A DNA stretch of 64,000 nt. Origin: Allorhodopirellula solitaria (lineage in GTDB: Bacteria; Planctomycetota; Planctomycetia; Pirellulales; Pirellulaceae). The stretch is taken from NCBI RefSeq assembly GCF_007859855.1, contig NZ_SJPK01000001.1, positions 862,091 through 926,090 on the forward strand. Direction: 5' to 3'. The notes under the pieces were generated by a model. That model did no database searches, was not told the DNA's origin, and saw only the letters and a list, made by a program, of their open reading frames with translations. Below, piece by piece: positions 5,173 through 25,964 of this stretch. Position 1 is the stretch's first letter, and the number at the start of each line of letters is the position of its first letter. Both the position numbers and the translations under genes were made by a program.

Positions 5173-5256
5173 CTATCGACCCATTTTCGTTCAGGCTGCG
5201 TAGGGTGTGTTTGCTCATCTCGCTACTGATTCCGCTCGACCACCAACACGCCCATT

Positions 5257-8123: not shown

Positions 8124-8165
8124 AACGCAAGCCGCCCTCGGCAAACTTGCGTTCGCGGAGGGCGG
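8124..8165. terminator. overlapping alternative hairpins between convergent genes
   Basis: Two perfect 8-bp stems interleave: AACGCAAG (8124-8131) with CTTGCGTT (8146-8153), and CCGCCCTC (8132-8139) with GAGGGCGG (8158-8165). They cannot both form fully because no linker separates the 5' arms. The position just after the rightward stop and before the leftward stop suggests a bidirectional terminator, though there is no clear T-run. Confidence 0.4.
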
Positions 8166-8212
8166 GGCGTTGTCAGGATATTTCGATCCCTCATCGAAGG
8201 ACTGCCGAGTTG

Positions 8213-9340: not shown

Positions 9341-9575
9341 TGGACAAAGTCCTTCTTGTCTGTTTGCAGGATTGCTCGGCCCCAGGCAAAAGCGGGGGCT
9401 GTTTCATTAAGATCGGTTGTTCCGATAGGTAGGATTGAGTCGAACCTACGGAATATTCCGATTTCACCGCCAGGGCAGGCTTGGGGGATTGGAGAAGATG
9501 TCGGTTATTTCAGTGCATCTACCTGACAATCGCTAGCTCGGGGATCCGGAATTGGAGAGTCGTGATCGAGCCCGC

Positions 9576-10499
9576 TCAATAGCTGCCCATCATCGCGCCG
9601 TCGGCTCGATTGCCGAGGTTCTGATAGAGCTGCGGTTCGATGGAGTGGGAGATGAATCGAATCGAACCGTCGGCAAAGCAGAAATGGGCACCGCCGTTGT
9701 GCAGGCTGTCGAAACCACCGACGAAGTCCTTCTTCATCTCGCCATCCTCGTTCAAGGCTTCCGGGGGCAACTGCTCGGGTTGGCCGTACTGGCGAGGAGG
9801 AATACTGCTCGGTTCAGCGTCGGGGGACATCGACCGGCCCGCCAACCAACCTGTATTGCGAAGTGACGCCCGCGTCCCGGAGGCCCACCCGAGGCTATCG
9901 AGACTCGGCAACATCTCACCGACCAGAATCGTGTGCGAGCTGCCATCGGTGATCTCGCCGTAACCCACATGGCTGTTGAGGAAGAGCAGTCCGGTATTGT
10001 CCTCATCAATCGGCGCCTCGGTGTGGTGATGACACCCCGCATAGTTGGTCAGGCCCGAGGTGTTGTCGTTATTTACATAATAAGGCGACGAGGGGCAGAG
10101 AAACGAATTGATATGGACAGCCCGGGCGGGCGCGTTGGCAGGATCATAAGTCCCCAAGGAGATGTCGAACTGCTCCGCGACGCCTTGTTGCTCGATGTAG
10201 GGACACAGCTGAACCAGGTAACCGACATGCTGGCCAACGGGTTCATTCCGGATGGGTCCGTCGGGATTGATCGAACCAGAGGGCATGTGCTCCATCGAGA
10301 ATTCAAAATTATGGGCAGACAGACCGATCTGCGCCATGTTATTGGAACAGGAACACCTCCGCGCCGCTTCCCGTGCCGCTTGCACGGCGGGTAACAGCAA
10401 CCCCACCAAGACACCGATGATTGCGATCACAACGAGCAACTCGACGAGCGTGAATGCCGCCCGAGCACCCGGCAGATTTCGCTTGGTAGCAATAGACAT
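9576..10499 (-). CDS. DUF1559 prepilin-type protein
   Basis: 307 residues. A short basic leader ends at A15 before FTLVELLVVIAIIGVLVG, the type IV prepilin/pseudopilin cleavage and transmembrane helix, followed by LLPAVQAAREAARR typical of DUF1559. The C-terminal signature is HNGGAHFCFADGSIRF. The family is greatly expanded in Planctomycetes and is thought to resemble GspG-type major pseudopilins. A strong AGGAG site lies 6-10 bases before the ATG. It is downstream of, and on the same strand as, the pseudopilus operon but separated by a hairpin repeat, so it may be the structural subunit for that apparatus. Confidence 0.9.
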   Translation of the reverse strand: MSIATKRNLPGARAAFTLVELLVVIAIIGVLVGLLLPAVQAAREAARRCSCSNNMAQIGLSAHNFEFSMEHMPSGSINPDGPIRNEPVGQHVGYLVQLCPYIEQQGVAEQFDISLGTYDPANAPARAVHINSFLCPSSPYYVNNDNTSGLTNYAGCHHHTEAPIDEDNTGLLFLNSHVGYGEITDGSSHTILVGEMLPSLDSLGWASGTRASLRNTGWLAGRSMSPDAEPSSIPPRQYGQPEQLPPEALNEDGEMKKDFVGGFDSLHNGGAHFCFADGSIRFISHSIEPQLYQNLGNRADGAMMGSY

Positions 10500-10520
10500 G
10501 AAATTTCTCCTGAACGCCTA

Positions 10521-10606
10521 AACCAAAAGAGGTCTGACCCTTTGGTGGCAAGTCGGTTTCAGTGGTGTGGTCGCCTCACCGAATTGGGTCAGACCCCTTT
10601 TCGGTT
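10521..10606. repeat. GGGTCTGACCC inverted-repeat element, copy 1
   Basis: Left arm AACCAAAAGAGGTCTGACCC (10521-10540) pairs with GGGTCAGACCCCTTTT-CGGTT (to 10606) around a 45-base spacer. The same arms occur at 24056-24148 with a different spacer. This is a dispersed foldback unit between the pseudopilin operon and the DUF1559 gene and could act as a transcript processing site or terminator. Confidence 0.7.
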
Positions 10607-10644
10607 CGGCATGGAGTGAGGCGAATATGGGTTCGCGAGACAGT

Positions 10645-11127
10645 TCAGTCGCTGGCGTCGGCGTCGGTATCGGTGGCAGTCGAAGCTGCCCCTGGCTCTT
10701 CAGCGTTTCCCGCGACTGGTTGCGTCGCGATGACTCGCGATCGCTTGGTTTGAAACGGATGGACATCCTGATTCTGGATCGTGGCAACGACCATGAAACG
10801 TTTCGAACTGACTGCGGCCGCGTCATCCTCAGCCGCCTCAATCTCGACGCGGGCAGTGGCGTACGACTCCAAGGCTGCGCCGAGTTCCAGCAACTCACCG
10901 GTGTAGTCAGGATTCTCGGTAACACTGCGATGGACATGGCGAACGCCAGCGTCGAGTAGCAGGCGAGTTTGTTCGAGCTGCCAATCGTGATTCAACTGTC
11001 GCCGTGCACGCAGACTCCGCTGCATGGCCAGGCCAGTGATCGCCGAGGCAATGCCAAGGCAAACCAGCACAGCAAGCAGGACGGCGCCGCTGCGACGCAT
11101 GCGTTCGTTGCGGGAATATCCAATCAT
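10645..11127 (-). CDS. GspK-like minor pseudopilin
   Basis: About 160 residues. The N-terminus MIGYSRNERMRRSG followed by AVLLAVLVCLGIASAITG resembles GspK/PilX-type minor pseudopilins, with basic residues and Gly before a hydrophobic helix and no Glu at position 5. The rest contains a helical stretch (LRARRQLNHDWQLEQTRLLLDAG) and a Ser/Thr/Asp-rich tail. The ATG at 11127 overlaps the TGA of the upstream gene as ATGA; this decides the start over a longer in-frame version. Last gene of the coupled operon. Confidence 0.75.
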   Translation of the reverse strand: MIGYSRNERMRRSGAVLLAVLVCLGIASAITGLAMQRSLRARRQLNHDWQLEQTRLLLDAGVRHVHRSVTENPDYTGELLELGAALESYATARVEIEAAEDDAAAVSSKRFMVVATIQNQDVHPFQTKRSRVIATQPVAGNAEEPGAASTATDTDADASD

Positions 11128-11723
11128 GAGGAACCTCCCTCGTCCGGCGTCGCAACGAGATCGCTCGGTGCGGCCAACCACCGCCCTACCTCAGCACGAA
11201 TCGCCAGGTCTTGCGGTGAAGACGAACCTTCGTCTGCCCCCTGATGATCGGCGATACCCGATTCATTGGCTCGATGCCGATAGACAACGAGTGAAACCCA
11301 TCGGCGAGACTGGTCGAGTTGCCATTCGACAGCCGCCTGGTCGCGCAGTGCATAGGTCTCTTCACTTCGCACGCTCTCATCGCTCGAGCTGGACTGACTG
11401 CGGCGCACCACATGGTCCTCGATCTGGTAACGCACGCGGATGCCGTCGATCGCAAAGTCGACCTGGGCGCCGTCACCGGCAATGGACTGTGCAGCATGAG
11501 CGTCATCGCGAAACTGGCGACTCAGACGCATCAGGCTCTGATGATGACGTTCGTGCCCCCGCAACACCGACGCCAATTGGATGGATTGGTGAATCCAGCC
11601 GACCGCAATGACAAGCAATGTGGAGGAAACGGACAGGATGACAACGGTCTCGATGAGCGACGATCCACGGGACACCGGAATGCGTCTCTGAAATTTGGCT
11701 CGTGATGGCTGGGCATCTATCAT
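11124..11723 (-). CDS. pseudopilin-like protein (GspJ/PulJ type)
   Basis: 199 residues. A leader ends in SRG before SSLIETVVILSVSSTLLVIAVGW, a pseudopilin N-terminus with Glu at position 5 of the mature protein. The soluble part (VDFAIDGIRVRYQIEDHVVRR, AVEWQLDQSRRWVSLVVYRH) matches the beta-rich pattern of GspJ-like minor pseudopilins. ATG 11723 overlaps the preceding gene's stop by four bases. Confidence 0.78.
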   Translation of the reverse strand: MIDAQPSRAKFQRRIPVSRGSSLIETVVILSVSSTLLVIAVGWIHQSIQLASVLRGHERHHQSLMRLSRQFRDDAHAAQSIAGDGAQVDFAIDGIRVRYQIEDHVVRRSQSSSSDESVRSEETYALRDQAAVEWQLDQSRRWVSLVVYRHRANESGIADHQGADEGSSSPQDLAIRAEVGRWLAAPSDLVATPDEGGSS

Positions 11724-12169
11724 GGCGACACCTCGTCGAAATGGATCCAGCCCACCAAACGTGCTGGCCGGATGGGATGAGCTGCCTTCCAGCTCAGCGT
11801 CAGAACAATGCGTTCACCAAACTCGTCCTCGATCCGCTCGCCGGTGAGTTCGGCTCGATCCAGGCTGGCAGCGACCGCTGAGGAGGGCATCAGTTCTTTC
11901 AACGCCTCGTCGATCTCGTCGGCGGGCAACTTCGTGATCGATTCGAGTGTATTGGTTAGCTCACTCATCGCGATTCGTTGATGAGCGACATCACTCCACA
12001 ACCGGCCGACACGGACTGCCATCGTGGTGACGGTGCTCATGGCAACGAGCAGGATGGAGGCCGCGACGACGCACTCGATCATCGTGATGCCCTGGCGGCG
12101 ATCGCGGCGGTGCCTGGTCGCGGACGACAAGGATGGATCAGACTGAGTCAATCGATATGCCTCCTTCAT
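11720..12169 (-). CDS. pseudopilin-like protein (GspI/PilV type)
   Basis: 149 residues from the ATG that overlaps the upstream TGA (ATGA). Basic leader RRDRRQG is followed by ITMIECVVAASILLVAMSTVT, a prepilin cleavage site with Glu5. The soluble domain is short and ends VGWIHFDEVSP. Larger in-frame extensions upstream lie inside the neighbouring gene and are not used. Likely a minor pseudopilin of the same apparatus. Confidence 0.78.
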   Translation of the reverse strand: MKEAYRLTQSDPSLSSATRHRRDRRQGITMIECVVAASILLVAMSTVTTMAVRVGRLWSDVAHQRIAMSELTNTLESITKLPADEIDEALKELMPSSAVAASLDRAELTGERIEDEFGERIVLTLSWKAAHPIRPARLVGWIHFDEVSP

Positions 12170-13203
12170 GCCAACGCTCCGACAAGACTGTAGATACATG
12201 AGAACATGCCCACGGCAGCCAGCATCACGATTGCTGCGAGTATCAAGAGCAGGACCATGGAGACCGAGCGGACAAGGAACGCCGACCGGAGATTCGCCCA
12301 GACGCTGCGTTGTTTTGCTGAACGACGCAGCAACCAAGCCTGGGTGAATCGATCCTCGGTGAGTTGCAGCGCTTCCCCATTGGCGGGACTGACGAAATGG
12401 CAATTGGCCAATGCCTGCCATTCGTTTTCGCCGCGGTCGATCGAGCGGGAAGCATCGATCAGGCGGCGGCGAATTCGGCTGACAGGATGAACCCGCGCCA
12501 GCGTAGCGATGCCCGCACTGAGCGGACGGCCCGATTGCAGGGTCACCGACAGCAGATCGAGCAGCTGGGCAGCGGCTTGCGGCATCCGGCGACGAAGGCC
12601 GAGTGGCCACTTCACGCGATTGAAGAACAGGGGACGAACGAACAATGCCATCAGGTACAACACGAACCCAGGAATGATCAACCACGGGAAGTACTGACCA
12701 ATCGCCATGAACCATGTCATCGCGGCCGGGATTGGAACTTCAAACTCCTCGAACATCTTCACAAACGTTGGCGAAATGAAGAGCATGAAAAAACTGATCA
12801 CTAGCGCGGCGATCAGAAATCCGCCAGCGGCCTGGATGAACTGCGTTTCGATTGAACTTGCGCGTGCCTCCAGCATCGGATCGGCAACGGCATCGCTGGC
12901 AATCAGAGATTGCAGAGTTTCAGGATACGTGCCGGTTTCTGTGCCCAGTCGCAGCAGCAATAGCGCCGCCGGATCGATGGCCTCGGGGGTTTGCTCGAGA
13001 GCATCGACAACGGGCGTTCCATCGGCCAGCAAGCGGGCAACCTGGCGTAGCACGCGGGATCGCCTGTGTGAAAACTCGACAGCGAGTCGATCTACCATCG
13101 CGGCCGGGTCGAGCCGCCGACGCTGCGACATCAACAGCACGCGGACGAGCGCACGCTCGTGTGGAGCCGTCACCTGAAACGAATGGGAAATGATCCGGTT
13201 CAT
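12166..13203 (-). CDS. GspF-like inner-membrane platform protein (second F-type)
   Basis: About 345 residues. N-terminal cytoplasmic helices LLADGTPVVDALEQTPEAID and LLRLGTETGTYPETLQSL, then a helix pair and TFVKMFEEFEVPIPAAMTWFM, the characteristic GspF region before the second membrane segment. The second half repeats the pattern (LLDLLSVTLQSGRPLSAGI) and ends in a C-terminal helix. Known role of the family: membrane platform on which pseudopilins assemble. ATG 13203 overlaps the stop of the preceding GspF-like gene by four bases. Confidence 0.85.
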   Translation of the reverse strand: MNRIISHSFQVTAPHERALVRVLLMSQRRRLDPAAMVDRLAVEFSHRRSRVLRQVARLLADGTPVVDALEQTPEAIDPAALLLLRLGTETGTYPETLQSLIASDAVADPMLEARASSIETQFIQAAGGFLIAALVISFFMLFISPTFVKMFEEFEVPIPAAMTWFMAIGQYFPWLIIPGFVLYLMALFVRPLFFNRVKWPLGLRRRMPQAAAQLLDLLSVTLQSGRPLSAGIATLARVHPVSRIRRRLIDASRSIDRGENEWQALANCHFVSPANGEALQLTEDRFTQAWLLRRSAKQRSVWANLRSAFLVRSVSMVLLLILAAIVMLAAVGMFSCIYSLVGALA

Positions 13204-14390
13204 GACAGCCCCGTGATAAGTTGAACCAAGGGGGCGAACAAAGCCGTGACAATGAGCCCGACCGAAATGAGAACGCCCATATACAAAACTTGCGATAGAC
13301 AACCGAAAGATCGCGTTGACCCCGGTTGCGTACGATCCCAATAAATCTCGGCAATATCACGGAGAATGCCGGCTTGATCCAAGCTCATCGCAGCGCCGCG
13401 TGAGACGCCTGCCGTCGGTGCCGGGGAGGGACTTTCCAGCGCAAGGGTGTCGGCGAGCAATTGGCAGCGAACGCCCCGGAAATGCGTCAGGCCCACGAAC
13501 GGGTTCCTGCCCCTGCGAAGCTCCTGCGCCCAGAACTGACTGTTGCGTTGCAGCCAATCACGCATACACGAATCTCCCGCGATCTCAATGGCGTCGGCCT
13601 TGTCCAACCCCGCCCGCATCAACAACGAGACATGCCAAGCCCAATCGCCACACACACCTCGCGTCGAACGGAAACGGCTGCCGCCCACGCTAGCACTAGT
13701 CGATTCGGTGGGCGGACGGGATCGGAGATAGAGGAACAAACAAACGCATAGCAAGATCCCGACGAGCCACACATAGGTCCATGGCGACCGCGCCGCATCG
13801 GAGATCATGAAGAGAAACTGCGTGGAAGCGGGCAGGGTCAGTCCGAATTCGTCGAACATGCTTTTGAACGTCGGCACCAACAGAGCACTCGTCAAAAACA
13901 GAATCATGCCACAGGCCAACAGCACCAGCAGCGGATAGAAGAGCAACGTAAACAGACGCTGCCGAGCAGCCTGCACAGGCAAATGGGTGAGCAACACACC
14001 ATTGACCGCATGTTCGATGCTGACATGCAGATCATCTTCGCACTGGTCGACACCGTCCGCCTCATCATTGCCTGTTTCAGACATTCCTTCCTGGCGAGCG
14101 GTTTCTTGTTCTGGATTCGAGCGTGTGTCGTGCCCCACGACTGGTGAATCTTCGTCACCTGAGCGCCCCGCCAACGTCAGAAAGATCTCCAACGCCATCG
14201 GGTTTTGCAGGATATCGGAATCCTGTTTCGCGAACGCAATCGCATCGGCCAGTCGCAGTAATTTTTTCCGTGCACGACCTGAGAAACGATCGGCGGTCGA
14301 GGTCAACGCCAAGACGATCTTGTCTCGCACGGGCAGCCAATCGCTAATCCAGGTGACTGCGGCGACGGAGTTTTCTGGTTTGGCAGTCAT
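13200..14390 (-). CDS. GspF-like inner-membrane platform protein (first F-type)
   Basis: About 396 residues starting MTAKPENSVAAV at the ATG overlapping the upstream TGA. An acidic insert (residues ~95-125) splits the N-terminal domain. The membrane part includes LVPTFKSMFDEFGLTLPASTQF, again the GspF core pattern, and WHVSLLMRAGLDKADAIEIA matches the F-domain second repeat. It is divergent from, but clearly parallel to, the next gene. Two separate GspF proteins in one operon are unusual for classical type II systems, which have one. Confidence 0.82.
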   Translation of the reverse strand: MTAKPENSVAAVTWISDWLPVRDKIVLALTSTADRFSGRARKKLLRLADAIAFAKQDSDILQNPMALEIFLTLAGRSGDEDSPVVGHDTRSNPEQETARQEGMSETGNDEADGVDQCEDDLHVSIEHAVNGVLLTHLPVQAARQRLFTLLFYPLLVLLACGMILFLTSALLVPTFKSMFDEFGLTLPASTQFLFMISDAARSPWTYVWLVGILLCVCLFLYLRSRPPTESTSASVGGSRFRSTRGVCGDWAWHVSLLMRAGLDKADAIEIAGDSCMRDWLQRNSQFWAQELRRGRNPFVGLTHFRGVRCQLLADTLALESPSPAPTAGVSRGAAMSLDQAGILRDIAEIYWDRTQPGSTRSFGCLSQVLYMGVLISVGLIVTALFAPLVQLITGLS

Positions 14391-15466
14391 GGCCACATCC
14401 CCGTCTCGGTGGAAATGGTTGCTAGGTCGTGGATCAGCATCACCAGCGGGCCGAACAGCACCAGGCCGTATAGCAGGACACCACCGCCGCCGAGCACCGC
14501 GATCAGCAGCATCGGTAGACTGATTCGCAGTCGCATCAAACGGTGGGCGGCAAGGGATGCTGCACTGTTGGCAACGAGCGACCACCCCACGCGGCGGACC
14601 CGGGTCACACTCTGTTTTTCGTTCTTGCTACGGGGAGCCTCCCGCTCATGGTCGTCTTCGATGCGATCGTCACGTCGCCGCCAGATCGCTTGCTCGATCC
14701 GGGCTCGAGTGACTACCTCGCGAGCATCGCGATACCGGCGCCCACCCAACAGGTTCGCAATCGCAGCGGAACCGCGAGCGGACAGACCGAGCAGGATCAA
14801 TGCCAGCACTAGTAGCGGCAAGGTGACCAGGAGCCAGCCCAGCCTCGGTATCGCCAACCACGATGGGGTTTGCTCGACGGACGGCAGCAGCGTCAAGTCG
14901 GCTCGAATCGCGGCCAGGCGGGGCAGTGAGAATTCGGAGAAGATCGCAATCCCAGCGGTGGCGACCACCGTCATCGCAGCCAAGTAGAACCAGACCGGGC
15001 GGACCGTCCCCGCCAGATCCTGCGTGACGGCGCGCCGCACCGTGAGGGCATCGAGCACGAGATCCATTCGCTCGGATTCGGCATAGCCGACATAGGCGGA
15101 CCAGTATCCGGTGGGCAGCCCCGGCACGACGCCTCCGATCGAAGAAACACCGGCCGAGGCAACACCGGCCGACGCACTGTCTTTCGACGCACTGTCTGCC
15201 GTTTGTTGGCCGCTGGGATCAAAGCGTTCTGGGGCGAGCGGGTGCGATTGCACCCATTCGCTCAGCAACGGTTCCAATCGGTCCAGTTTGGCGAGGGTCG
15301 CGGTGCCACCAAGAGTACGGTCCTCCGGCGCAGGTACCGACTCAGCACTGGCCGGGACTTCACCCAGGTCAAGCCGAGCACCGGCAACCACAGCGGCGCG
15401 AAGAGATTGGTGAAATAGATGCGGCCGATCGGACTCGCCGCCAGCTGCCTTGAACGCATCGCTCAT
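14387..15466 (-). CDS. polytopic membrane protein, divergent GspF-like
   Basis: 359 residues. The N-terminal third is soluble with a linker (SKDSASAGVASAGVSS); then membrane segments around residues 165-185, 210-235 and 320-345. FSEFSLPRLAAIRADLTLLP followed by a helix echoes the F-protein core (a short soluble segment with L-P before a membrane helix), so I read it as a third, degenerate platform protein. That assignment is inference; it could be a family-specific membrane partner. Coupled by ATGA on both sides. Confidence 0.6.
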   Translation of the reverse strand: MSDAFKAAGGESDRPHLFHQSLRAAVVAGARLDLGEVPASAESVPAPEDRTLGGTATLAKLDRLEPLLSEWVQSHPLAPERFDPSGQQTADSASKDSASAGVASAGVSSIGGVVPGLPTGYWSAYVGYAESERMDLVLDALTVRRAVTQDLAGTVRPVWFYLAAMTVVATAGIAIFSEFSLPRLAAIRADLTLLPSVEQTPSWLAIPRLGWLLVTLPLLVLALILLGLSARGSAAIANLLGGRRYRDAREVVTRARIEQAIWRRRDDRIEDDHEREAPRSKNEKQSVTRVRRVGWSLVANSAASLAAHRLMRLRISLPMLLIAVLGGGGVLLYGLVLFGPLVMLIHDLATISTETGMWP

Positions 15467-15858
15467 CGCTGGGTTCCTTCAAGCTGCGAGTTCGGTTGCC
15501 GCGTTGACGAGTCGCCCGGGCGACGTCGCCAATCGTAAATCACTTCCGTCAACGCCCATTCCCAGCCGATCCCCTCGATATTGGCCCGCCGCGACGCTTG
15601 CTCATGCAGATCGCTGGCCGATCGGCCGTGCGGCGCGACCTGCACTCCGATCTGCCCAACCACCAGCAGCAGCCAGGCGACGGTGGTCGTGAACACGACG
15701 CCGCCGACGAGACGCTGCCACAACCGGCGTCGTTGCCGACGCTCGTCGACTTGCTCGAGGATCCGCGCTCGGAGTTGATCGCCGGGACGGACATAGTCAC
15801 CGGCATCGCGGATAAGATTTTCGATATCCCCGTGGTGTTGGTTGAGCGGATCAAGCAT
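15463..15858 (-). CDS. small single-pass membrane protein, candidate anti-sigma factor
   Basis: 131 residues from ATG 15858, which overlaps the end of the sigma factor gene by 8 bp. An N-terminal charged region (QLRARILEQVDERRQRRR) precedes one membrane helix (residues ~50-70, VGGVVFTTTVAWLLLVVGQIG) and a short outer tail. No zinc anti-sigma motif is visible. Immediate coupling to an ECF sigma gene and the topology fit an anti-sigma factor, but no family is recognised. Confidence 0.55.
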   Translation of the reverse strand: MLDPLNQHHGDIENLIRDAGDYVRPGDQLRARILEQVDERRQRRRLWQRLVGGVVFTTTVAWLLLVVGQIGVQVAPHGRSASDLHEQASRRANIEGIGWEWALTEVIYDWRRRPGDSSTRQPNSQLEGTQR

Positions 15859-16504
15859 GGCTCCGCCCCCGTTCCTGCCCGTTGAAATGGGCCGCTTCGC
15901 CAAGCTCGCCGCTCAATCGATCACTGAGTTTGGCCACGGCGTACCGATAGCGGCTCGCCGCCGTGGAGGGAGTGATTTCGAGCACCGCCGCGATCTCGGC
16001 GAAGGTCATCTCCTCCCAGATCTTCAGCACGACGACTTCACTCTGCTGAGTCGGCAGCGACCGCATCGCACGCCAGATAGCTCGGTAGCTTTCCTCCCGC
16101 TCGAGCTCGTCAACGCGGCACCGGGTCAGCAGGTCGCAGAGATCGCCAAACAGGTTCCAGCGTGGTCGACGTCGGAGGATGACGAGTGATTCATTACGAA
16201 CCATCCGCAATAGAAACGCCCAGGGATCTTCGCATTGATGCAGCCGCCCGGGCTGGGCAGCCACCTTGACGATCGCGGCCTGCACGGCATCTTCGGCGTC
16301 ATGCTGGTTTCGCGTGATGGTGGTTGCATAGCGAACCAAGCGGAGTGAGGTCAGATCGATGAGGCCACTGATCGCGTCCTCGCCCAATTCCGCTAGCTGG
16401 CGAGCGCTCACACGGACACGCTGCGTGAACGAAGCAAAAGCCGAGCACTGGCTAGCAGTTGGGGAGCCTGAAACAGGCGACGGCGGTGGATTGAAGTGGC
16501 TCAT
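15851..16504 (-). CDS. ECF-type RNA polymerase sigma factor
   Basis: About 217 residues. Region 2 covers residues ~55-110 (ITRNQHDAEDAVQAAIVKVA, PWAFLLRMVRNE) and region 4 ~145-200 (MRSLPTQQSEVVVLKIWEE, TFAEIAAVLEITPSTAASR), the sigma-70 helix-turn-helix. A GTG one codon earlier (16507) is an alternative start; GAGGGG just upstream is the ribosome site. As first gene of a coupled pseudopilus operon, it probably controls that operon or a related surface regulon. It starts about 215 bp from, and diverges from, the cobalamin riboswitch. Confidence 0.88.
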   Translation of the reverse strand: MSHFNPPPSPVSGSPTASQCSAFASFTQRVRVSARQLAELGEDAISGLIDLTSLRLVRYATTITRNQHDAEDAVQAAIVKVAAQPGRLHQCEDPWAFLLRMVRNESLVILRRRPRWNLFGDLCDLLTRCRVDELEREESYRAIWRAMRSLPTQQSEVVVLKIWEEMTFAEIAAVLEITPSTAASRYRYAVAKLSDRLSGELGEAAHFNGQERGRSHA

Positions 16505-16717
16505 CACCCCTCAAGATGCGCTCAAGGGCAGCATTTGTCTATTTCTTCACGATTATTTTAGAGAAAGTTCAACCGAATACTCGGCAGGCCGAGCGTCTGG
16601 GGAAAACAAAGTGGCCCTGTTGGTTTGCAGAGGCCACGATCGCCCCGGTTGTCCGCTGGGTCCGCTATCGATGTCGCACGTTGACAATCTCGCAGGGGAA
16701 GTCGATACTCCCGACAA

Positions 16718-16942
16718 CGATACTGGGTGCCGCGTCGGCCGAGTTGGTCCGGCGCGAAAACAGGGAACTTCGGTGGAATTCCGAGACGGCCCGGCCGCTG
16801 TATCCGACGCTTCGAGCCCACCATTCTCACTTGCTGTGGTGGCTCGAACCCCACTCCTCCCTCTTTGCCATTGCCGAAATTGTTCGGCGAGAAGGCCGGG
16901 GGTGCGGATTGCGTCGGGAGTCAGAAGACCTACCTGGTATCG
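16718..16942 (+). ncRNA. cobalamin (B12) riboswitch
   Basis: The closing stem P1 pairs CGATACTGGGT (16718-16728) with ACCTGGTATCG (16932-16942), 11 bp including two G-U wobbles. The catalytic-like core shows AGGGAA (16762-16767), then CGGTGGAATTCCG (16771-16783), then ACGGCCCGGCCGCTGTA (16785-16801 region), matching the AGGGAA-GGTG-AA-CC-CCCG-CTGT order of the family. A hairpin at 16813-16846 follows, then GCCATTG (family GCCACTG, 16867), GAGAAGGC (16889), GGAT and GAGTCAGAAGACCTACC (16918-16934), the conserved 3' end. It ends 12 bases before the AGGAGG of the DUF1559 gene. CTCCTC inside the aptamer (16854-16859) could pair with that site (inference). Confidence 0.93.
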
Positions 16943-16969
16943 GGCGTTAAGCGAGGAGGTGGGTGTGCT

Positions 16970-17968: not shown

Positions 17969-18049
17969 CCCCCAGGCGGTGCCTCCCACCGTTGCCAGCA
18001 TATTTCCCAGCACTCTCTTCTCGAATCACGACTCGATTTGCTCACACCT

Positions 18050-21000
18050 ATGAACTACAAACAATCTCGTCAGATTGCCCGTCGACGCATTGGCCGTCGA
18101 CTCCTCGTTGAATCGCTCGAAGGCCGCCGTCTATTGGCTGCGGGACCGTACGCACCTGCCGCTGGGCAACCTGATTCGACAGCGATCAGCAACGACGATC
18201 CCGCCTTCGTCGGCTGGGCAACGGCCGTTGCCGACTACACACCGGACAGTGACGTCGACGACGTGTGGACGGATGCTTCTGAAGCGACTGGCCCCGCCGA
18301 GGGAAACTATGATTCGATCGTGTCGCTCGGCCGTGGCGGTTCGCTAACTCTGACCTTCGACACTCCCATTCGCGATGGACTCGGAGCCGACTTCGCGGTC
18401 TTTGAAAATTCAATCAACGACACGTTTCTCGAATTGGGTTTTGTCGAAGTCTCCTCTGATGGCGTGAACTACTTTCGCTTCGATTCCGATTCCCAGACCC
18501 CATCGGCTGTTTCGAGTTTTGGGGCGGTCGATCCGACCAATATTCACAATCTCGCGGGCAAGTATCGCCGCGGTTATGGCACCCCCTTCGACCTGGCCGA
18601 ACTGCGAGGCGAGGCCGGCCTGGATGTGACGTCGATCCAGTACGTGCGATTGGTCGACATCGTTGGTGATGGGCTAACCAATGACGCATCGGGCGATCCA
18701 ATCTACGATCCGACACCCACGTTCCAGTCCGCTGGTCTCGATGTCGATGGAGTAGGAGTGATTCACGCCGCTGAGACGGCAGACGCGATCGTCGACTTGG
18801 AAACCCTCGGCAGTGGGCTGGGCGGTTCCTCGTTCGACAATGGCGCCAATGCAGGCGGTGAATTCAGTGAAGAGGAGATCCTGCTCAACAACAACTACTC
18901 GTCGCAGTATCAAAGTTGGGCGGGATGGTCGATTTCGCAGACCACCGACACGACGACAGCGGGCTACACCAACCAGTACTCCAACATCACCGGCGGCGGC
19001 GTTGACGATTCGGACACCTACGCCGTTGGATTCTTCGATCCGTCGCCCAACGGCGCCCTGCCGGCGCCCGCACTCACATTGGATCCGGTTAGCGGCTCGC
19101 GTTTTGATTCGCTGTACGTGACCAATACCACCTACGCGGTCCTCTCGATGCGAGAGGGCGACGGCTTTGCCAAAAAGTTCGGTGGCGTCAGTGGTGACGA
19201 CCCTGATTTCCTGCGTTTGACGATTACTGGTCTCGATGCAACCGGCAGCGCGGTCGGCGATGTCTCGGTGATGCTGGCCGACTACCGTCCAACGGACAAT
19301 TCGGAAGACTTCATCTTGGATGCGTGGACTCGTGTCGATGTCTCATCTTTGGCCGATGCCCGGTCGCTACAGTTCACGATGGAATCGTCCGACAACAGCC
19401 CCTTTGGCATGAACACGCCTGCCTACTTCGCCGTTGACAACGTGGCTTTGCAACGCCCGCTGGTTCCGTTGGATCTATCGAGCCCCACGACCGTTGAGGA
19501 CAGTAGCGTGGTCGGACGTGTGTCGCGGCCCACGCTCGATACGTCGGCACCCGTGACGGTAGCGATCGAAAGCACCGGTAGCGACGAGGTGACCTTGCCG
19601 GCATCCGTCACGATCCCGGCCGGTGAGGACTATGCGGAGTTCCAGATCGCGCCCGCCAACGACGCGATTCCGACACCGGACCGAGAGGTGCAGATCACCG
19701 CGTCAGCAGATCTGATGTTGCCATCGACCCGCTCGCTCGTGATCCAAGACGATGAGGTGCTGTCGATCACGTTCACACCCTCGACGATCAACGCCACCGA
19801 AGGCGATGGACCGAGCGGCGCGACGTTGACGCTCACCCGCAACGACGCCGATATCAGCACGCCCCTGGCGGTGACGCTCTCACATGACGCGACCGAGCTG
19901 CTCACCATTCCTACCACCGTGACTTTTGCAGCCACGCAGCGAGAGGTCACGATTCCGATCAACGTGCTCGACGATGAGATCGCCGGCGACGGGCAGACGA
20001 TTGCTGTGCGGGCCGAGGCGGAAGGGCGTGCCCCCGCGGAATTGACGATTGAACTCGCCGATGACGACCTCCCGGCGTTGCGGATGGCCCCCACCACGGT
20101 GAGCGTGAGCGAAGAGGAACCGGCGACGACCCGCACGGTTCAGATTTATCGCAATACTGCGGATCTCTCCAACGCCGTTACGGTGGCTCTCGCTCTACCC
20201 GATGGCGCCCCGCTGACGATCCCAGCTGAGGTGACGATCCCTGAAAACATGGACTCGGTGAGCTTCGATATCGGGGTAGTCGACGACTCCTTGGTCAATG
20301 AACTGCCGGTCTACCGCATTGCCGCCAGCCGTGCGGGGTTCCTCTCGGCGTCGTTGGATGTCCAGGTCACCGACAACGATGGGCCGCCACCCGGCTTGAC
20401 GGTCTCCGCCCCCGAGACGGGACTTTCTGAATCGGATGCTGTTTTCGTTAGTGATTTCGAATCGCTCGGTTCGGGATTGCTGACCGGTGAGTTTGATAAC
20501 AGCGCGGGTGCGAGCGGCGCGTTCGGAGATGGCGTACTCGAGTTCGAGAACACGTTTGACAATTCGTTTGGATTCGATGTTTGGTCGGGCTTTGCGATCA
20601 GCCGTGGTACCGATTCGCAGACCCCAGGATTCGGTAACCAATACTCTTCCCTCGCCGGTGGTGGGGCCGACGGTTCGAGCACCTACGCGATCGCATACGC
20701 CGGCTCGCCCGCTGTCGTCAGCCGCGAGAACACAACCGCGAATTTTTCAACGATCGATGTGACCAATACCACGTATACCGGCTTATCGATGCGAGACGGT
20801 GACGACTTCGCGAAGAAGTTTGGTGGTGAGTCGGGAGACGATCCTGATTTCCTTCTGTTGACCATTGATGGGCTCGACGAAAACGGAGAGTCCATTGGCG
20901 AGGTGCAAGTTTACTTGGCCGACTATCGCTTCGAGAACAATGATCTGGACTACATCCTTGAGGACTGGACCACGATCGATGTGGGCGGCATCGGCCACGC

Positions 21001-23806
21001 CGAAACGTTGTCGATGCAGCTCACATCTTCGGACAATGGCGATTTCGGCATGAACACACCTGCTTATCTCGCAGTCGACAATGTCTTGATGGAGCCTGAA
21101 ACCTCGTCGCTGCCGACGATCACGGTCGCTCGGACGGGCGGCGATACGTCCTCGCCGGTCGAGGTCAGTCTCACTGACGACCGCAACGAGATGCGGTTGC
21201 CGCCTCAAGTGACGATCCCCGCCGGGGCGACCGAAGTCAGCGTGCCCGTGCAATGGCTCGATGATGCGATTGCCCAAGGCGATCGAATTTGGCAAGTCGA
21301 CGCGTCCGCAGACGGGTTCACCTCAGCGAGCGAGTCCATCGTGCTGCGTGATGACGACGAACCGGCGCTGTCGATCACACCCTCCGCGGAACAACTCAAT
21401 GAATCCGCTGGACAGCAGACGATCGGTTTCGAAGACGTCGGCGGATCCCTCGACGATGAGTCCTTCAACAACGGTGCCGACGGACGGGGCGGATTCGCGT
21501 CGGGCTCGCTCGAGTTTTCGACCGCTTACGACCCCACCTTCGGTAGCTGGAGTGGCTGGTCAGCATCGAACGTCACCGATGTCGCGACGGCGGGATTCGG
21601 CAACCAGTTTTCAGCGTTTGCGGGCATCGGCGATGAAGTACCGGGCGGTGGAGCCAATGAGTCCGCCACGTATGCTGTCGCGGGCGGCTACGGTTCGTCC
21701 CCACTGACGATTGCGCTTCCCGATGGCTTCGAGGGTGCATCCTTTGGTTCGATCGACATCACCAATACGACCTACACGGCGCTATCGATGTTGCAGGGTG
21801 ACGCGTTTGCGAAACAGTTTGGAGGCGAGAGCGGTGACGATCCCGACTACTTCCTGTTGACGATTGACGGCGTCAATGATGTCGGCGAGACAGTTGACTC
21901 GATCGACTTCTACTTGGCCGACTATCGTTTTGATGACAACTCGCTCGACTATGTCGTCGCCGACTGGACCACGGTCGATCTCACTTCCCTGACGGGAGCG
22001 ACCAGCCTGCAATTTTCGATGTCGTCGTCGGACGTCGGCGACTTCGGCATGAACACTCCTGCTTTTTTCGCCATTGATGAACTCGTGATCGATCGCGACG
22101 CCGATGCGTCGCCGTCTCTTGTGGTTGCCCGCAATTCAGCCGACCTCAGTGAAGCGGTTACCGTGACGCTCGATGCGGATCCAACCACGTCGCTGTCCGC
22201 ACCACCGAGCGTAGTGATCCCTGCGGGCGCCGATCGAGTGCGTGTGCCACTCTCACTCGTCGATGATGCCGTTTATCACGGTGATGAAACAGCGACATTC
22301 ACAGCGTCGGCAGAAGATTTTGCAAGTTCCGCGACATCCATCGATGTGCTCGAAGACGAACTGCCGAGAATCGTACTCGGTGGCGCCGAAGCAAATATCC
22401 CACTCGCCGAAGGTGGGGATTCCCAGTCCTTTACCGTCAAACTGCCTTCGGCCCCAACAGGACCGGTTACCATTTCCATCACCGGTGGAGACGGGGCGTT
22501 GGATGTCGCGCCCGCGGAATTGACATTCGGCCCCGAGAATTGGGACCAACCTCAAACCGTCACAGTCGCCGGACGTCTTGACCTGCTGGCCGAGGCCGAT
22601 CAAGTCATCCGCTTAGGCGTGAGCGACGGGTCGACCGACTACGCTCGGGCAGATGCGTGGATTCAGCTCGCCGATTACCAACCGGAACACCTCACCCTCG
22701 AAGTCGATGGTGATGCTGTGCAATTGATTGACGATGATCGCGGGTATGTCTTTGGCCAGTACACCGACGACGATCCCATCGCCTTCGCCCTGAGTGACCT
22801 GGCCCAACGACTCACACTCGAACCCCTCGGCCGCAGCGACGCCACGGTCAGCCTGGGTGGCGGAGACGATACCCTGCAGTTGCACTCGGCGGCATTTGAC
22901 GAGATCAATGGTGGCGTTGGTTACGACGGTGCGGTGATCGCTCCAACCGACCTCGAGGATGGCGCATCGATCGACGTAGCCGACTGGCTAACGCAGCGAC
23001 TGATCGGTTTTGAGGATATCGTCTTAGGATCTGCGGCAGTCGGTTCGGACACCTCTGCGATTCCCTTCACACTCGACGCTGACCAAATGCAAGCAGTATT
23101 CGATGGTGACTCACCACGCGTGAGTACCGCAGCAGACCAAAACTGGGATCTCATCGGCGAGTGGCAGATTGGCGAACCGACGATCGAAGGAGGCGTTTTC
23201 ACCGGACGGATGGTCAGTGGCGACGCCGAGGTGTGGGTCGCGACCGATCACCCCTACCAGAACTTTGTCGACTACGCCGATGTCAATGCAGACGGCATCG
23301 TCACCTCAGTCGATGCACTCACGATCATCAATCGCATCAATGCGGATCCTGAGTTCATTCTGCCGCCGCCCACCTCGCCCGACGATTTCGACGGATTCTA
23401 CTACGATGTCTCCGGCGACAATTTCGTCACGTCGCTCGATGCGTTGCAGGTGATCAATTGGCTCAACAGCCAAGATACGGCTGGCGTTTCGGACGATGAT
23501 CCGCCGCAGGCAAGTCCTCAGACGAGCCGAGCCAGTGGCGAGGACGTCAACATGGCGGAATTGGCACGCCGCGATGGCGACGACAGCGATACAGACGTAG
23601 AATCCGAACCCGAGATGGTCATCACGGTGGAGGAGACCGCTTTGCCCGCAGCGACCACTTGGACGAGCCCCGCGTCGATTGCCCCTCAACGAGCAACAAA
23701 TCGCGATTCAAAAACGATCGATCCTGCGGCCGTCGACGCCGTCATCGGTGACTTGGAACTACTATCGGCTTCGACCGATCTGGCAGTGTCGGAGCGACTC
23801 GCATGA
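18050..23806 (+). CDS. giant surface protein: DUF4465 x3, Calx-beta repeats, dockerin
   Basis: 1918 residues. The N-terminus has the planctomycete sorting motif LEGRRLLA (residues 23-30). Residues ~35-235 hold a domain with FAVFENSINDTFLELGFVEV and NLAGKYRRGYGTPFDLAEL, seen in other secreted proteins. Three DUF4465-type domains follow (about 244-465, 799-1014, 1121-1347), each with SxxDNG, a W-x-G-W/F-x-I/A-S core, TNTTY, SMxxGDxFAKxFGG and FGMNTPAY. Between them are Calx-beta-like repeats (PASVTIPAG pattern). A dockerin-like pair of Ca-binding loops is at ~1741-1808 (DVNADGIVTSVDALTIIN; DVSGDNFVTSLDALQVIN). DUF4465 proteins in Bacteroidetes are linked to B12 loci, which fits the riboswitch; direct B12 binding is inference. 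Confidence 0.88.
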   Translation: MNYKQSRQIARRRIGRRLLVESLEGRRLLAAGPYAPAAGQPDSTAISNDDPAFVGWATAVADYTPDSDVDDVWTDASEATGPAEGNYDSIVSLGRGGSLTLTFDTPIRDGLGADFAVFENSINDTFLELGFVEVSSDGVNYFRFDSDSQTPSAVSSFGAVDPTNIHNLAGKYRRGYGTPFDLAELRGEAGLDVTSIQYVRLVDIVGDGLTNDASGDPIYDPTPTFQSAGLDVDGVGVIHAAETADAIVDLETLGSGLGGSSFDNGANAGGEFSEEEILLNNNYSSQYQSWAGWSISQTTDTTTAGYTNQYSNITGGGVDDSDTYAVGFFDPSPNGALPAPALTLDPVSGSRFDSLYVTNTTYAVLSMREGDGFAKKFGGVSGDDPDFLRLTITGLDATGSAVGDVSVMLADYRPTDNSEDFILDAWTRVDVSSLADARSLQFTMESSDNSPFGMNTPAYFAVDNVALQRPLVPLDLSSPTTVEDSSVVGRVSRPTLDTSAPVTVAIESTGSDEVTLPASVTIPAGEDYAEFQIAPANDAIPTPDREVQITASADLMLPSTRSLVIQDDEVLSITFTPSTINATEGDGPSGATLTLTRNDADISTPLAVTLSHDATELLTIPTTVTFAATQREVTIPINVLDDEIAGDGQTIAVRAEAEGRAPAELTIELADDDLPALRMAPTTVSVSEEEPATTRTVQIYRNTADLSNAVTVALALPDGAPLTIPAEVTIPENMDSVSFDIGVVDDSLVNELPVYRIAASRAGFLSASLDVQVTDNDGPPPGLTVSAPETGLSESDAVFVSDFESLGSGLLTGEFDNSAGASGAFGDGVLEFENTFDNSFGFDVWSGFAISRGTDSQTPGFGNQYSSLAGGGADGSSTYAIAYAGSPAVVSRENTTANFSTIDVTNTTYTGLSMRDGDDFAKKFGGESGDDPDFLLLTIDGLDENGESIGEVQVYLADYRFENNDLDYILEDWTTIDVGGIGHAETLSMQLTSSDNGDFGMNTPAYLAVDNVLMEPETSSLPTITVARTGGDTSSPVEVSLTDDRNEMRLPPQVTIPAGATEVSVPVQWLDDAIAQGDRIWQVDASADGFTSASESIVLRDDDEPALSITPSAEQLNESAGQQTIGFEDVGGSLDDESFNNGADGRGGFASGSLEFSTAYDPTFGSWSGWSASNVTDVATAGFGNQFSAFAGIGDEVPGGGANESATYAVAGGYGSSPLTIALPDGFEGASFGSIDITNTTYTALSMLQGDAFAKQFGGESGDDPDYFLLTIDGVNDVGETVDSIDFYLADYRFDDNSLDYVVADWTTVDLTSLTGATSLQFSMSSSDVGDFGMNTPAFFAIDELVIDRDADASPSLVVARNSADLSEAVTVTLDADPTTSLSAPPSVVIPAGADRVRVPLSLVDDAVYHGDETATFTASAEDFASSATSIDVLEDELPRIVLGGAEANIPLAEGGDSQSFTVKLPSAPTGPVTISITGGDGALDVAPAELTFGPENWDQPQTVTVAGRLDLLAEADQVIRLGVSDGSTDYARADAWIQLADYQPEHLTLEVDGDAVQLIDDDRGYVFGQYTDDDPIAFALSDLAQRLTLEPLGRSDATVSLGGGDDTLQLHSAAFDEINGGVGYDGAVIAPTDLEDGASIDVADWLTQRLIGFEDIVLGSAAVGSDTSAIPFTLDADQMQAVFDGDSPRVSTAADQNWDLIGEWQIGEPTIEGGVFTGRMVSGDAEVWVATDHPYQNFVDYADVNADGIVTSVDALTIINRINADPEFILPPPTSPDDFDGFYYDVSGDNFVTSLDALQVINWLNSQDTAGVSDDDPPQASPQTSRASGEDVNMAELARRDGDDSDTDVESEPEMVITVEETALPAATTWTSPASIAPQRATNRDSKTIDPAAVDAVIGDLELLSASTDLAVSERLA

Positions 23807-24018
23807 CACAGGCCTCCGTCGTCCGTTCGCCCTGCACAGGAATCTGCCTGCTCAACGAGCGTGAGATTTGCACCGGATGCCATCGTAGCCGTAGCGAAAT
23901 CGGCCGTTGGTCGATTGCATCTTCGGAAGAAAAACGTTCCATTTTAGGGGCCGTCCGCTCACGACGCTTTGCGGCGATCACGACGCAGCCAACCAATGAA
24001 AATGTAAAACCTGACTAA
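23803..24018 (+). CDS. DUF1289 four-cysteine protein
   Basis: 71 residues. SPCTGICLLNEREICTGC gives C11, C15, C23 and C26, followed by RSRSEIGRW and SSEEKRSIL: the full DUF1289 pattern, probably an iron-sulfur or metal site. Function of the family is unknown. Its ATG overlaps the stop of the giant surface protein gene (ATGA), so a small cytoplasmic metal protein is translationally coupled to a 1918-residue exported protein. Confidence 0.85.
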   Translation: MTQASVVRSPCTGICLLNEREICTGCHRSRSEIGRWSIASSEEKRSILGAVRSRRFAAITTQPTNENVKPD

Positions 24019-24055
24019 GAATTTCTCCCCTCAATCAGTCCAACTCATTGAGAGC

Positions 24056-24148
24056 CTATCCGGATAGGGGTCTGACCCTCTCCAGCGAGGCTGTTAACAA
24101 CCATCTCCAATGATTCGCCTCCAAAGGGTCAGCCCCCTTTTCGGATAG
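24056..24148. repeat. GGGTCTGACCC inverted-repeat element, copy 2
   Basis: Left arm CTATCCGGATAGGGGTCTGA... and right arm AGGGTCAGCCCCCTTTTCGGATAG form a foldback with a ~45-base spacer. Same arm core as 10521-10606. It lies between the DUF1289 and DUF6580 genes and may end or split the B12 unit. Confidence 0.65.
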
Positions 24149-24167
24149 TTTTTTGAAAAGCAACCTC

Positions 24168-24746
24168 ATGAAATCCCTTACCAATCCACTTCGCCGTTCA
24201 GTCTCGTCTGTTTCCCTTTCATCGCTAGCGCTCTTGTTTGCTGCTGTTGCGATTGCCGTGGCTGCCCGACTGCTGCCCCACCCGCCCAACTTCACACCAC
24301 TGGCTGCGTTGGGATTGTTCGCAGGCGCTATGAGTCTTCGGCCACTCGTCGCGGCAACCGTGGTCGTGGCCGCGATGTTGATCAGCGATGCGTTTCTCGG
24401 CTTCCACCCGCTGATGCCAGTTGTCTACGCCTGCCTGCTGGTCAATCTCGTAATCGGATCGCGTTGGGTTCGCCAAGGCGACGATTTTCGCTGGGGGGCC
24501 GCGGCCTGTGGCCGAATTGCCACCGGCAGCCTGATCGGCAGCGTGCTGTTTTTCCTCGTCACCAACTTTGCAGTGTTCCTGAGTTCCTACCCAGCGACCG
24601 GTGGCGGGTTGCTGGCGTGCTACACCGCCGCAGTGCCGTTCTTCCAGTACACCCTGACCGGCGACTTGGCATACAGCGCCGTCTTGTTCGGAGCCTACGC
24701 GCTGTGCACAGCGAAATCCACTTCGCCAGTCTACTCGGCCGCCTAA
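24168..24746 (+). CDS. DUF6580 family membrane protein (ECF S-component-like)
   Basis: 192 residues from ATG 24168 (a TTG five codons earlier is possible). Five or six membrane helices. Family landmarks: RLLPHPPNFTPLAALGLFAG, ISDAFLGFH, SVLFFLVTNFAVF, SSYPATGGGLLACYTAAVPFF and GDLAYSAVLFGAYA. Topology is like substrate-binding S components of energy-coupling-factor transporters. Placement after a B12-riboswitch gene set supports a role in cobalamin or cobalt uptake (inference); no ECF ATPase is in the window. Confidence 0.82.
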   Translation: MKSLTNPLRRSVSSVSLSSLALLFAAVAIAVAARLLPHPPNFTPLAALGLFAGAMSLRPLVAATVVVAAMLISDAFLGFHPLMPVVYACLLVNLVIGSRWVRQGDDFRWGAAACGRIATGSLIGSVLFFLVTNFAVFLSSYPATGGGLLACYTAAVPFFQYTLTGDLAYSAVLFGAYALCTAKSTSPVYSAA

Positions 24747-25007
24747 CAGCGTTCCGAGTCAGCCCCGCCGGTTCACCCCTTGGGTTTGCGAACCGTTTTG
24801 GTTGATTTTAGTTGTGATGATTTCTGGAAAGAACTTGAAAAATGCGCGACCTCCGCAGAGGCGAGAGGTGGCTGCGTTGGCAACAGGGTCGATGGTCGAA
24901 TTCGCCCCGATGGCTTAGGATCTAGCGGGACAACCAAACTCCTACTGATCGTTCGTCCGCTGCTCCGATAGTTCCCGCTCCCGCCATTGAACCCCCCAGC
25001 CCCTTCG

Positions 25008-25964
25008 ATGAGCCTCTCGCCCGAATCGCTGTTAGTCGTTTACTGCGTACTCATCATCATGGCCTCCATGATGGGAGGGCGGTTGTCGAAGCTGGTTCAC
25101 ATGACGCACCTGCGGACCCAACTGCTAATGAGTGGCGTCGCCGGTTTGATGTTGGGGATCGCCCTGCTGCATCTGCTGCCGCATGCCACCGAGGTGCTGG
25201 GGTCGCCATCCAAAGCGGGCGCCGCAGCACTGGCTGGCTTAGTCGCGATGTTTCTATTGATCCGGCTGTTCCATACTCACGACCACGGGTCCAAAGAAGC
25301 CTCAGTCGACAGCGGCGAGGGACCGGCGTGTGATCATGACCATTCCCACTCGCAAGACCACGGGCACTCGCACGATCACGGGCATTCGCACGAACATGCT
25401 CACCCCCATAAAGGGTTGAGCTGGACAGGCATGTTCTTCGGGCTGGCGCTGCACACGATGATCGACGGGGTGGCGTTGGCGAGTAGCGTGATCGCCGACG
25501 CTCACCACGGGGCGTGGCTAGGCTTAGCGGGCTTAGGAACCTTCCTGGCAGTGGTTTTGCACAAGCCGCTCGATGCTTTCGCGATCACGTCCGTGATGAG
25601 CAAGCAGGGTTGGTCCGAGCGTGCTCAGAGTATCGCCAATGCTTGCTTTTCCTTGGCCTGCCCCATCGGAGCCTTTCTGATGTATGTCGGTGCGACGCAC
25701 TGGACCGACAGCACCGCCGTCCTCGGCTGGGGATTGGCCGTCTCGGCTGGATTCTTTATCTGCATTGCTTTGGCCGATCTCTTGCCGGAGGTCGCCTTTC
25801 ACGATCACGACCGGGGCAAGCTGACAATCGCATTGTTGCTTGGCGTGGGGATCGCCGTGGCGTTGGAGAATCTACCGGGGCATTTGCATGATTCGGAGGA
25901 TGGCCACGACCACACCTTCCCCACGATGGTTGATGACGCCGCGCCAGCAGACGAGGATCGCTAG
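25008..25964 (+). CDS. ZIP family metal transporter
   Basis: About 318 residues. Helices at the N-terminus (LLVVYCVLIIMASMMGG) include HLLPHATEVL; a cytoplasmic-type His-rich loop (residues ~95-140, many HDH/HSH repeats) precedes the ZIP signature HTMIDGVALASSV and HKPLDAFAI. These carry divalent metals (Zn, Fe, sometimes Co) into the cytoplasm. It is the last rightward gene after the B12-linked group, separated from DUF6580 by ~260 bp with no visible riboswitch, so it may have its own promoter. Confidence 0.9.
   Translation: MSLSPESLLVVYCVLIIMASMMGGRLSKLVHMTHLRTQLLMSGVAGLMLGIALLHLLPHATEVLGSPSKAGAAALAGLVAMFLLIRLFHTHDHGSKEASVDSGEGPACDHDHSHSQDHGHSHDHGHSHEHAHPHKGLSWTGMFFGLALHTMIDGVALASSVIADAHHGAWLGLAGLGTFLAVVLHKPLDAFAITSVMSKQGWSERAQSIANACFSLACPIGAFLMYVGATHWTDSTAVLGWGLAVSAGFFICIALADLLPEVAFHDHDRGKLTIALLLGVGIAVALENLPGHLHDSEDGHDHTFPTMVDDAAPADEDR

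Follow-up and report, generated by a model that had tools for sequence, protein, structure and literature searches.

Import of cobalamin (vitamin B12) under the control of a cobalamin riboswitch is the task of the BtuB-BtuFCD system. In Bacteroides thetaiotaomicron and relatives, the DUF4465 (IPR027828) proteins BtuJ1 and BtuJ2 are riboswitch-led and exported; those of B. thetaiotaomicron are lipoproteins encoded in loci with btuB. BtuH2 (7biz) is described as binding B12 via its C-terminal domain (PMC8941943), and the C-terminal extension of BtuG1 (8blw) as a BtuH domain (PMC10404256). At the inner membrane, BtuM of Thiobacillus denitrificans, a solitary S-component, is reported to function without an energy-coupling factor (ECF) module (PMC6072759); CbrT (6fnp_A), the S-component of the cobalamin transporter ECF-CbrT, is reported to have given no growth in Escherichia coli without its ECF module (PMC5997447). 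Here we describe a gene unit that bears on how outer-membrane bacteria without BtuB take up this 1.35-kDa vitamin; it lies in a 64,000-nucleotide stretch of the genome of Allorhodopirellula solitaria, family Pirellulaceae (the window; coordinates are window positions). At gathering thresholds, Rfam gives a single match in the window, a cobalamin riboswitch (RF00174), which is followed, all on the plus strand, by genes for a DUF1559 pseudopilin, a giant exported protein with DUF4465 and dockerin domains, a DUF1289 protein, and a DUF6580 membrane protein, as an initial annotation of the sequence had proposed.

The window unit very probably serves B12 scavenging, and we consider it likely that the whole forms an operon that is repressed by B12 and with which a B12-auxotrophic planctomycete scavenges the vitamin. 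At low B12, the riboswitch would permit expression of the operon, and the giant protein would capture cobalamin at the cell surface through its single BtuH-like domain and two or three of BtuJ type. The DUF1559 pseudopilin would replace BtuB in the unit and would probably form or join a fibre serving to convey captured B12 through the outer membrane or past it; this is the most conjectural of the steps. DUF6580, an S-component-like protein, would then take over at the inner membrane and, like BtuM, transport B12 with no ECF module.

Domains of the giant exported protein

The giant protein matches PF14717 (DUF4465) in three stretches (527.8 bits, 1.2e-159). The first of these domains matched six PDB sequences, including the B12-bound 9hmu, 9fct, and 9i2l, with 9hmu being the best (E 3.6e-23). 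Mucisphaera calidilacus is a planctomycete. Eight divergent DUF4465 proteins, one of them from M. calidilacus, are reported to bind B12 in vitro, and 97% of homologues are described as keeping an HI-loop tyrosine (PMC13398666). This NTPxY tyrosine is present in domains 1 and 2 of the window protein and is replaced by Phe in domain 3. With BtuJ1 and BtuJ2, the window protein shares the family, the HI-loop motif (domains 1 and 2), the leading riboswitch, and export; unlike them, it combines three DUF4465 domains with a BtuH-like domain in one dockerin protein of 1,918 amino acids, which has a pseudopilin gene in front of it. Its planctomycete export motif scored slightly under the cut-off (25.1 versus 25.5 bits).

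The unnamed N-terminal domain matches BtuH in profile and in predicted fold. A profile built from 26 domains of this kind, taken from the window protein and from related loci, matched 8blw_B (E 8.7e-6) and 7biz_A (E 0.0022) in the PDB, with the alignment covering about 90 of 244 positions and being confined to the first part of the domain. For the AlphaFold model (predicted local distance difference test score [pLDDT] of 82.6), the top Foldseek match was again 8blw_B (E 3.8e-5); the rows after it were carbohydrate-binding and discoidin-type folds, and 7biz was absent among the 50 rows shown. Similar as it appears to be to BtuH2 and the H domain of BtuG1, the window domain differs from them in being fused to DUF4465; Pfam recognised no BtuG propeller, and the unit encodes no BtuB partner. 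BtuH-like proteins are encoded by stand-alone genes as well (11 in the units of the family census described below), and a PEP-CTERM-like motif lies within the last 60 residues of 38 of 40 single-domain DUF4465 proteins.

Riboswitches and gene order across Pirellulaceae

A census of 149 genomes sampled from the family located RF00174 in 123 and DUF4465 in 59. The DUF4465 matches form 64 loci, 61 of which lie behind a cobalamin riboswitch: 45 are at most 3 kb downstream of a listed same-strand riboswitch, and cmscan found one 1.2 to 2.2 kb upstream in 16 of the remaining 19. Of the three loci without a riboswitch, two (L079 and L101) are cut by contig ends and one (L094) is uncut. A second set comprises 76 DUF4465 loci in named records, taken from the 80 best of 566 confirmed stretches; its composition follows taxonomy, and it shares members with the census (e.g., L268 with G141 and L270 with G091). 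All 20 loci of this set that were scanned had a riboswitch, including ones from Phycisphaerales, Sedimentisphaerales, Zavarzinella, and Verrucomicrobia (two of those from Verrucomicrobia being btuB loci). The proposal in the initial annotation of a B12-regulated unit for acquiring B12 at the surface gains support from the riboswitches at DUF4465 loci of the family and from the B12-binding DUF4465 relatives (PMC13398666).

The gene order that it had suggested comparing is, up to DUF6580, also conserved. Among the 58 units examined in which a riboswitch leads DUF4465, 50 include DUF1559, which precedes DUF4465 in 47. The exact order of the window (riboswitch, DUF1559, giant, DUF1289, DUF6580) recurs in five of the six same-genus genomes drawn, as well as in Rhodopirellula rubra, R. 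sallentina, R. europaea, and Aporhodopirellula aestuarii, two of these four named records being the same assemblies as drawn genomes.

DUF1559 follows cobalamin riboswitches more often than chance would allow. We examined 159 riboswitches from 116 genomes, namely, 143 of the 150 listed and 16 from a targeted scan at DUF4465 loci; those listed but left out were G084 C747, G103 C1:2772801, G108 C210, G041 C919, G144 C111, G106 C370, and G013 C6, and, the 16 from the targeted scan apart, riboswitches beyond the 150 listed also lie outside this set. The first classified gene was DUF1559 in 78 cases, a DUF1289-DUF1559 fusion in 8, btuB in 33, nrdA in 11, DUF4465 in 11, a BtuH-like gene in 8, metE in 4, DUF1289 in 3, and another gene in 3. 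Fusions included, DUF1559 came first after 86 of the 159 riboswitches, with its start at most 390 bp away, and after 70 of 143 when the 16 from the targeted scan, all DUF1559-first, were set aside. From the 77 DUF1559 matches in the 6.8-Mb A. solitaria genome, about 0.2% of random points would be expected to have a DUF1559 gene starting on the same strand within the next 400 bp. Here, btuB, nrdA, and nrdB labels were Pfam-checked on one member each; the relatives' genes that we take to be metE, cobQ, cobO, and cobU were recognised from sequence and used as search seeds with no database call. In Zavarzinella formosa (L285, positions 1491 to 12061), three adjacent cobalamin riboswitches stand by nrdA-like, metE-like, and DUF1559-giant genes, forming a B12 regulon island.

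The window DUF1559 protein carries both the N-methylation motif and PF07596. Its start is at 17114 or at an in-frame ATG at 16970 that stands behind a GAGGAGG sequence; the stretch 5' of 17114 is only partially conserved in two relatives. In a DUF1559 tree made with a quick method and a midpoint root (98 riboswitch-linked rows, the 30 best-scoring of the 77 in the A. solitaria genome, and the second DUF1559 of the window, so that the 31 unlinked rows come from one genome only), the protein clusters with DUF4465-linked DUF1559. Riboswitch-linked rows fall into several clades. DUF4465 or BtuH-like genes accompany one large group and DUF4465 a further, smaller one; the members of a deep clade mostly stand alone, and two more clades are linked to cobQ and to btuB, respectively. 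The cobQ and btuB clades share a larger group with the 31 unlinked rows, as does the DUF4465-linked row L070. Within the limits of the root and of the single genome, this fits a repeated recruitment of DUF1559 to B12 control.

In 10 loci (L116, L126, and eight more), DUF1559 heads a riboswitch-cobQ-cobO-cobU unit, so that a pseudopilin gene stands at the head of a B12-salvage operon. Several of these loci have a strong FecCD permease gene a few kilobases downstream. In 12 fusions (L052, L058, L073, L078, L082, L089, L090, L093, L095, L104, L179, and L190), DUF1289 precedes the DUF1559 pilin motif, and the fused Cys-rich domain would sit in the cytoplasmic prepilin leader. Members of the deep clade of riboswitch-led DUF1559 genes without DUF4465 include L110, L114, L115, and L135 to L138, and in two of them, L114 and L115, DUF1559 is followed by a small gene, seen by eye, for a lipoprotein-like product that contains Cys.

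The probable B12 requirement and the two membranes

CbiC belongs to both de novo B12 routes. It had no match in A. solitaria and is present in 2 of the 149 family genomes; 147 of 149 lack it and 124 lack a strong FecCD permease (PF01032, >190 bits), yet the PF02310 B12-binding domain is found in 148 (over the cut-off in 146). The A. solitaria genome encodes the B12-dependent reductase NrdJ (611.8 bits; cut-off, 399.95) and has a B12-binding domain in a MetH-sized frame of 1,278 amino acids. Its two cobalamin riboswitches lead the window unit and nrdAB, leaving no riboswitch-led BtuB, and its best PF01032 match, at 40 bits, compares with 190 to 311 bits for the strong FecCD matches in 25 genomes; we take matches of about 40 bits, including this one, for ABC permeases other than the BtuC type. 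The ECF component EcfT (PF02361) had no match in this genome and matched in 10 of 149. With no detected CbiC, EcfT, strong BtuC-type permease, or riboswitch-led btuB, yet with NrdJ and a MetH-sized protein, A. solitaria should need imported B12. In both respects, that of BtuB and that of the FecCD permease, the genome is unlike one with BtuB-BtuFCD.

DUF6580 looks like an S-component, as had been suggested initially, and is, on balance, probably an inner-membrane B12 transporter. A profile built from 13 sequences had a single PDB match at E <0.01, which was CbrT (E 0.0011). For the AlphaFold model (pLDDT of 80.9), the 12 best Foldseek matches were 11 named S-components and one chain of an ECF-PanT complex. 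BtuM had the highest query template-modelling (TM) score among them (0.64; target TM score, 0.68). The likeness to CbrT ends at the ECF module, which CbrT needs and for which no EcfT was found here; the likeness to BtuM lies in the apparently S-component-like fold, in a genome where neither EcfT nor a strong permease of the BtuC type was detected, although BtuM was not matched by sequence in the PDB profile search. DUF6580 occurs in 128 of 149 genomes and is counted as absent in 21 (G146 being one of these by elimination). It is missing from 12 of the 25 genomes with a strong FecCD match versus 9 of the 124 others (p 4e-6, with no phylogeny correction). Within the genus, G130 has a strong FecCD match and no DUF6580, its unit stopping at DUF1289, and G045 has both. 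Riboswitch, DUF1289, and DUF6580 alone form the units L111, L113, and L128. In L118, a single unit comprises a riboswitch, DUF1559, what we take from the sequence, with no database call, to be a DUF71-like gene, DUF6580, and what we likewise take to be a cation diffusion facilitator (CDF)-like transporter gene; these two also served as search seeds.

At the outer membrane, riboswitch-led btuB was found in 33 genomes and riboswitch-led DUF1559, DUF4465, or BtuH-like genes in 89, with both in 7 of the 149 (odds ratio, 0.11; p 4.9e-7). Counted by genus, 8 had both (a class that includes genera whose separate genomes carry one each), 10 btuB only, 36 the other only, and 14 neither (odds ratio, 0.31; p 0.047). 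The two are thus largely complementary by genome and weakly so by genus. A Fisher test on riboswitch-bearing genomes only (odds ratio, 0.003) was dropped as biased by conditioning. Among the 76 named-record DUF4465 loci, same-strand genes in the stretch fetched for each included DUF1559 without btuB in 42, btuB without DUF1559 in 18, both in 1 (L334), and neither in 15. A. solitaria has a single TonB receptor with a Plug domain (L240, 8441 to 10882), which scored 225 bits against a heme/hemoglobin model (cut-off, 316.9) and 107 against the B12 model (cut-off, 599.7), below all cut-offs shown. A possible TonB-like gene, noted by eye, adjoins it.

Several observations weigh against the proposed explanation. 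CbrT by itself is reported to have failed, and, with no EcfT match in this genome, DUF6580 would need to function as a solitary protein; its Foldseek E-values are not significant (0.083 at best). Most DUF6580 copies do not lie near a listed riboswitch, and a scan of DUF6580 loci away from listed riboswitches found none at 14 of 14 (L255 to L259 being outside the scan). The 40-bit PF01032 match of A. solitaria is over the Pfam cut-off, and DUF4465 domain 3 carries Phe where Tyr is conserved. Eight of the 58 riboswitch-led DUF4465 units have no DUF1559, and in 3 it follows DUF4465. The complementarity with BtuB, besides being weak by genus, carries no phylogeny correction and rests on the riboswitches examined. 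Finally, A. solitaria has kept one TonB receptor, nearest to heme receptors, that could carry B12.

The last point bears on a rather unlikely alternative, in which the giant protein does no more than capture and store B12 at the surface, passage through the outer membrane falls to an unlinked TonB receptor or a porin, and DUF1559 has an accessory role in anchoring or assembly. Besides that receptor, its support lies in many proteobacterial, myxobacterial, and verrucomicrobial loci in which DUF4465 and BtuH-like genes adjoin btuB and in the reported delivery of B12 by B. thetaiotaomicron BtuJ in vesicles (PMC12751083). It is opposed by the receptor's higher score with the heme/hemoglobin than with the B12 model and by the 46 of 89 genomes with riboswitch-led DUF1559, DUF4465, or BtuH-like genes that have no Plug match; 26 of these 46 are at least 95% complete, and they include G115, a single-contig genome of the same genus with the full window order. 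That DUF6580 moves a B12 precursor or another compound, cobalamin being handled by the surface part only, seems to us unlikely, if slightly less so for the riboswitch-free loci just described and for there being only 13 matched DUF6580 copies in the riboswitch-led stretches examined, as compared with its presence in 128 genomes. Against it stand the units of riboswitch, DUF1289, and DUF6580 alone, the CbrT match, and the anticorrelation with strong FecCD. Least probable by far is a supply of cobalt for B12 synthesis by the unit together with the ZIP transporter, whose gene stands about 260 bp further along the plus strand: CbiC is missing from A. solitaria and nearly all of the family, and the ZIP protein had no phmmer match in the 60 other DUF4465 loci fetched. 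We found nothing pointing to cobalt rather than cobalamin as the substrate, and neither cobalt nor the inclusion of ZIP in the unit, both put forward in the initial annotation, was borne out.

In Planctopirus and Gemmata species, fibres of planctomycetal crateriform structures are reported to bind dextran, and periplasmic dextran uptake to be active (PMC5394234); such fibres may consist of DUF1559. A BtuB-replacing fibre made of DUF1559 is possible, though doubtful. Equally tentative is the wider idea that planctomycetes and some relatives import B12 independently of TonB, with a B12-regulated pseudopilus fibre of DUF1559 conveying the cobalamin that BtuJ and BtuH domains have captured across the outer membrane, and with DUF6580 as a new solitary S-component at the inner one. 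If true, DUF1559 would represent a new principle of nutrient uptake at the outer membrane, and several of its lineages would have come to be regulated by B12. The unit yields candidates that can be put to the test at each membrane, gives access to the physiology of the expanded DUF1559 family, and points to a possible function for DUF6580. The domain families that bind B12 are already known. The searched literature, outside which most subscription papers and bioRxiv preprints lay, yielded no example of them combined with a pseudopilin and DUF6580, nor any mention of DUF6580, of DUF1559 with cobalamin, or of a cobalamin riboswitch with planctomycetes.

Layout of the window and neighbouring genes

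The features of the unit and its neighbours are listed in Table 1. The promoter candidate is suggestive by position alone, since one such sequence was found and 2.9 were expected by chance.

Table 1. Features of the riboswitch-led unit and adjoining genes in the 64,000-nucleotide window
Feature	Position	Strand	Evidence or remark
Sigma-70-like promoter candidate (TTGACA, 17 nt, GATACT)	16681-16709	+	position only; reaches riboswitch start
Cobalamin riboswitch aptamer	16708-16951	+	RF00174, 72.7 bits (gathering 31.5), E 5.3e-16
DUF1559 pseudopilin	17114-17968	+	PF07596 5.1e-63, N_methyl, pre_pil_HX9DG
Giant exported protein, 1,918 aa	18050-23806	+	BtuH-like domain, three DUF4465 (BtuJ) domains, dockerin type I
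BtuH-like domain	18140-18790	+	profile and fold match; no Pfam family
DUF4465 domain 1	18842-19450	+	HI loop NTPAY
DUF4465 domain 2	20501-21091	+	HI loop NTPAY
DUF4465 domain 3	21473-22090	+	HI loop NTPAF (Phe replaces conserved B12-contacting Tyr)
Dockerin type I domain, residues 1742-1806	23273-23467	+	9.8e-13
DUF1289, small Cys-rich protein	23803-24018	+	PF06945 4.1e-16; start overlaps stop of giant
DUF6580 membrane protein, S-component-like fold	24168-24746	+	PF20221 1.2e-44
ZIP transporter	25008-25964	+	PF02535; neighbour, not assigned to unit
Divergent pseudopilus operon with sigma factor	10645-16504	-	neighbour, not assigned to unit
Sigma factor	15851-16504	-
T2SSF-like protein	12166-13209	-
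Weaker T2SSF-like protein	13200-14585	-	below cut-off
Second DUF1559 gene	9576-10499	-

The pseudopilus operon that the initial annotation had placed back-to-back with the unit is indeed present divergently, with pilin-like proteins also among its minus-strand genes; its linkage to the unit was not seen in relatives, and we rejected it as a part of the unit. The proteins encoded at 10645 to 15903 matched only themselves in phmmer searches of the other loci, which include five of the same genus with 2.6 to 2.9 kb upstream of the riboswitch. The sigma factor had one match elsewhere, in L078 from another genus, and the second DUF1559 matched 67 sequences, as any DUF1559 would. Homologues of the stronger T2SSF-like protein (34 to 56% identity) occur in 10 of the 12 other genomes of the genus, G045 and G130 having only matches of 21 to 27%; in G115, G141, and G091, the three with a known place of the unit, they lie away from it. 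ZIP, likewise rejected, and the divergent operon stand beside the unit only in A. solitaria among the loci examined.

Between DUF1289 and DUF6580, an imperfect inverted repeat was seen by eye at 24060 to 24145; it is absent from the computed repeat list and is possibly a small mobile or repetitive extragenic palindromic (REP)-like element. Elsewhere in the window, at 6009 to 8123, a CAAX protease-like domain is fused to an ABC-2 permease.

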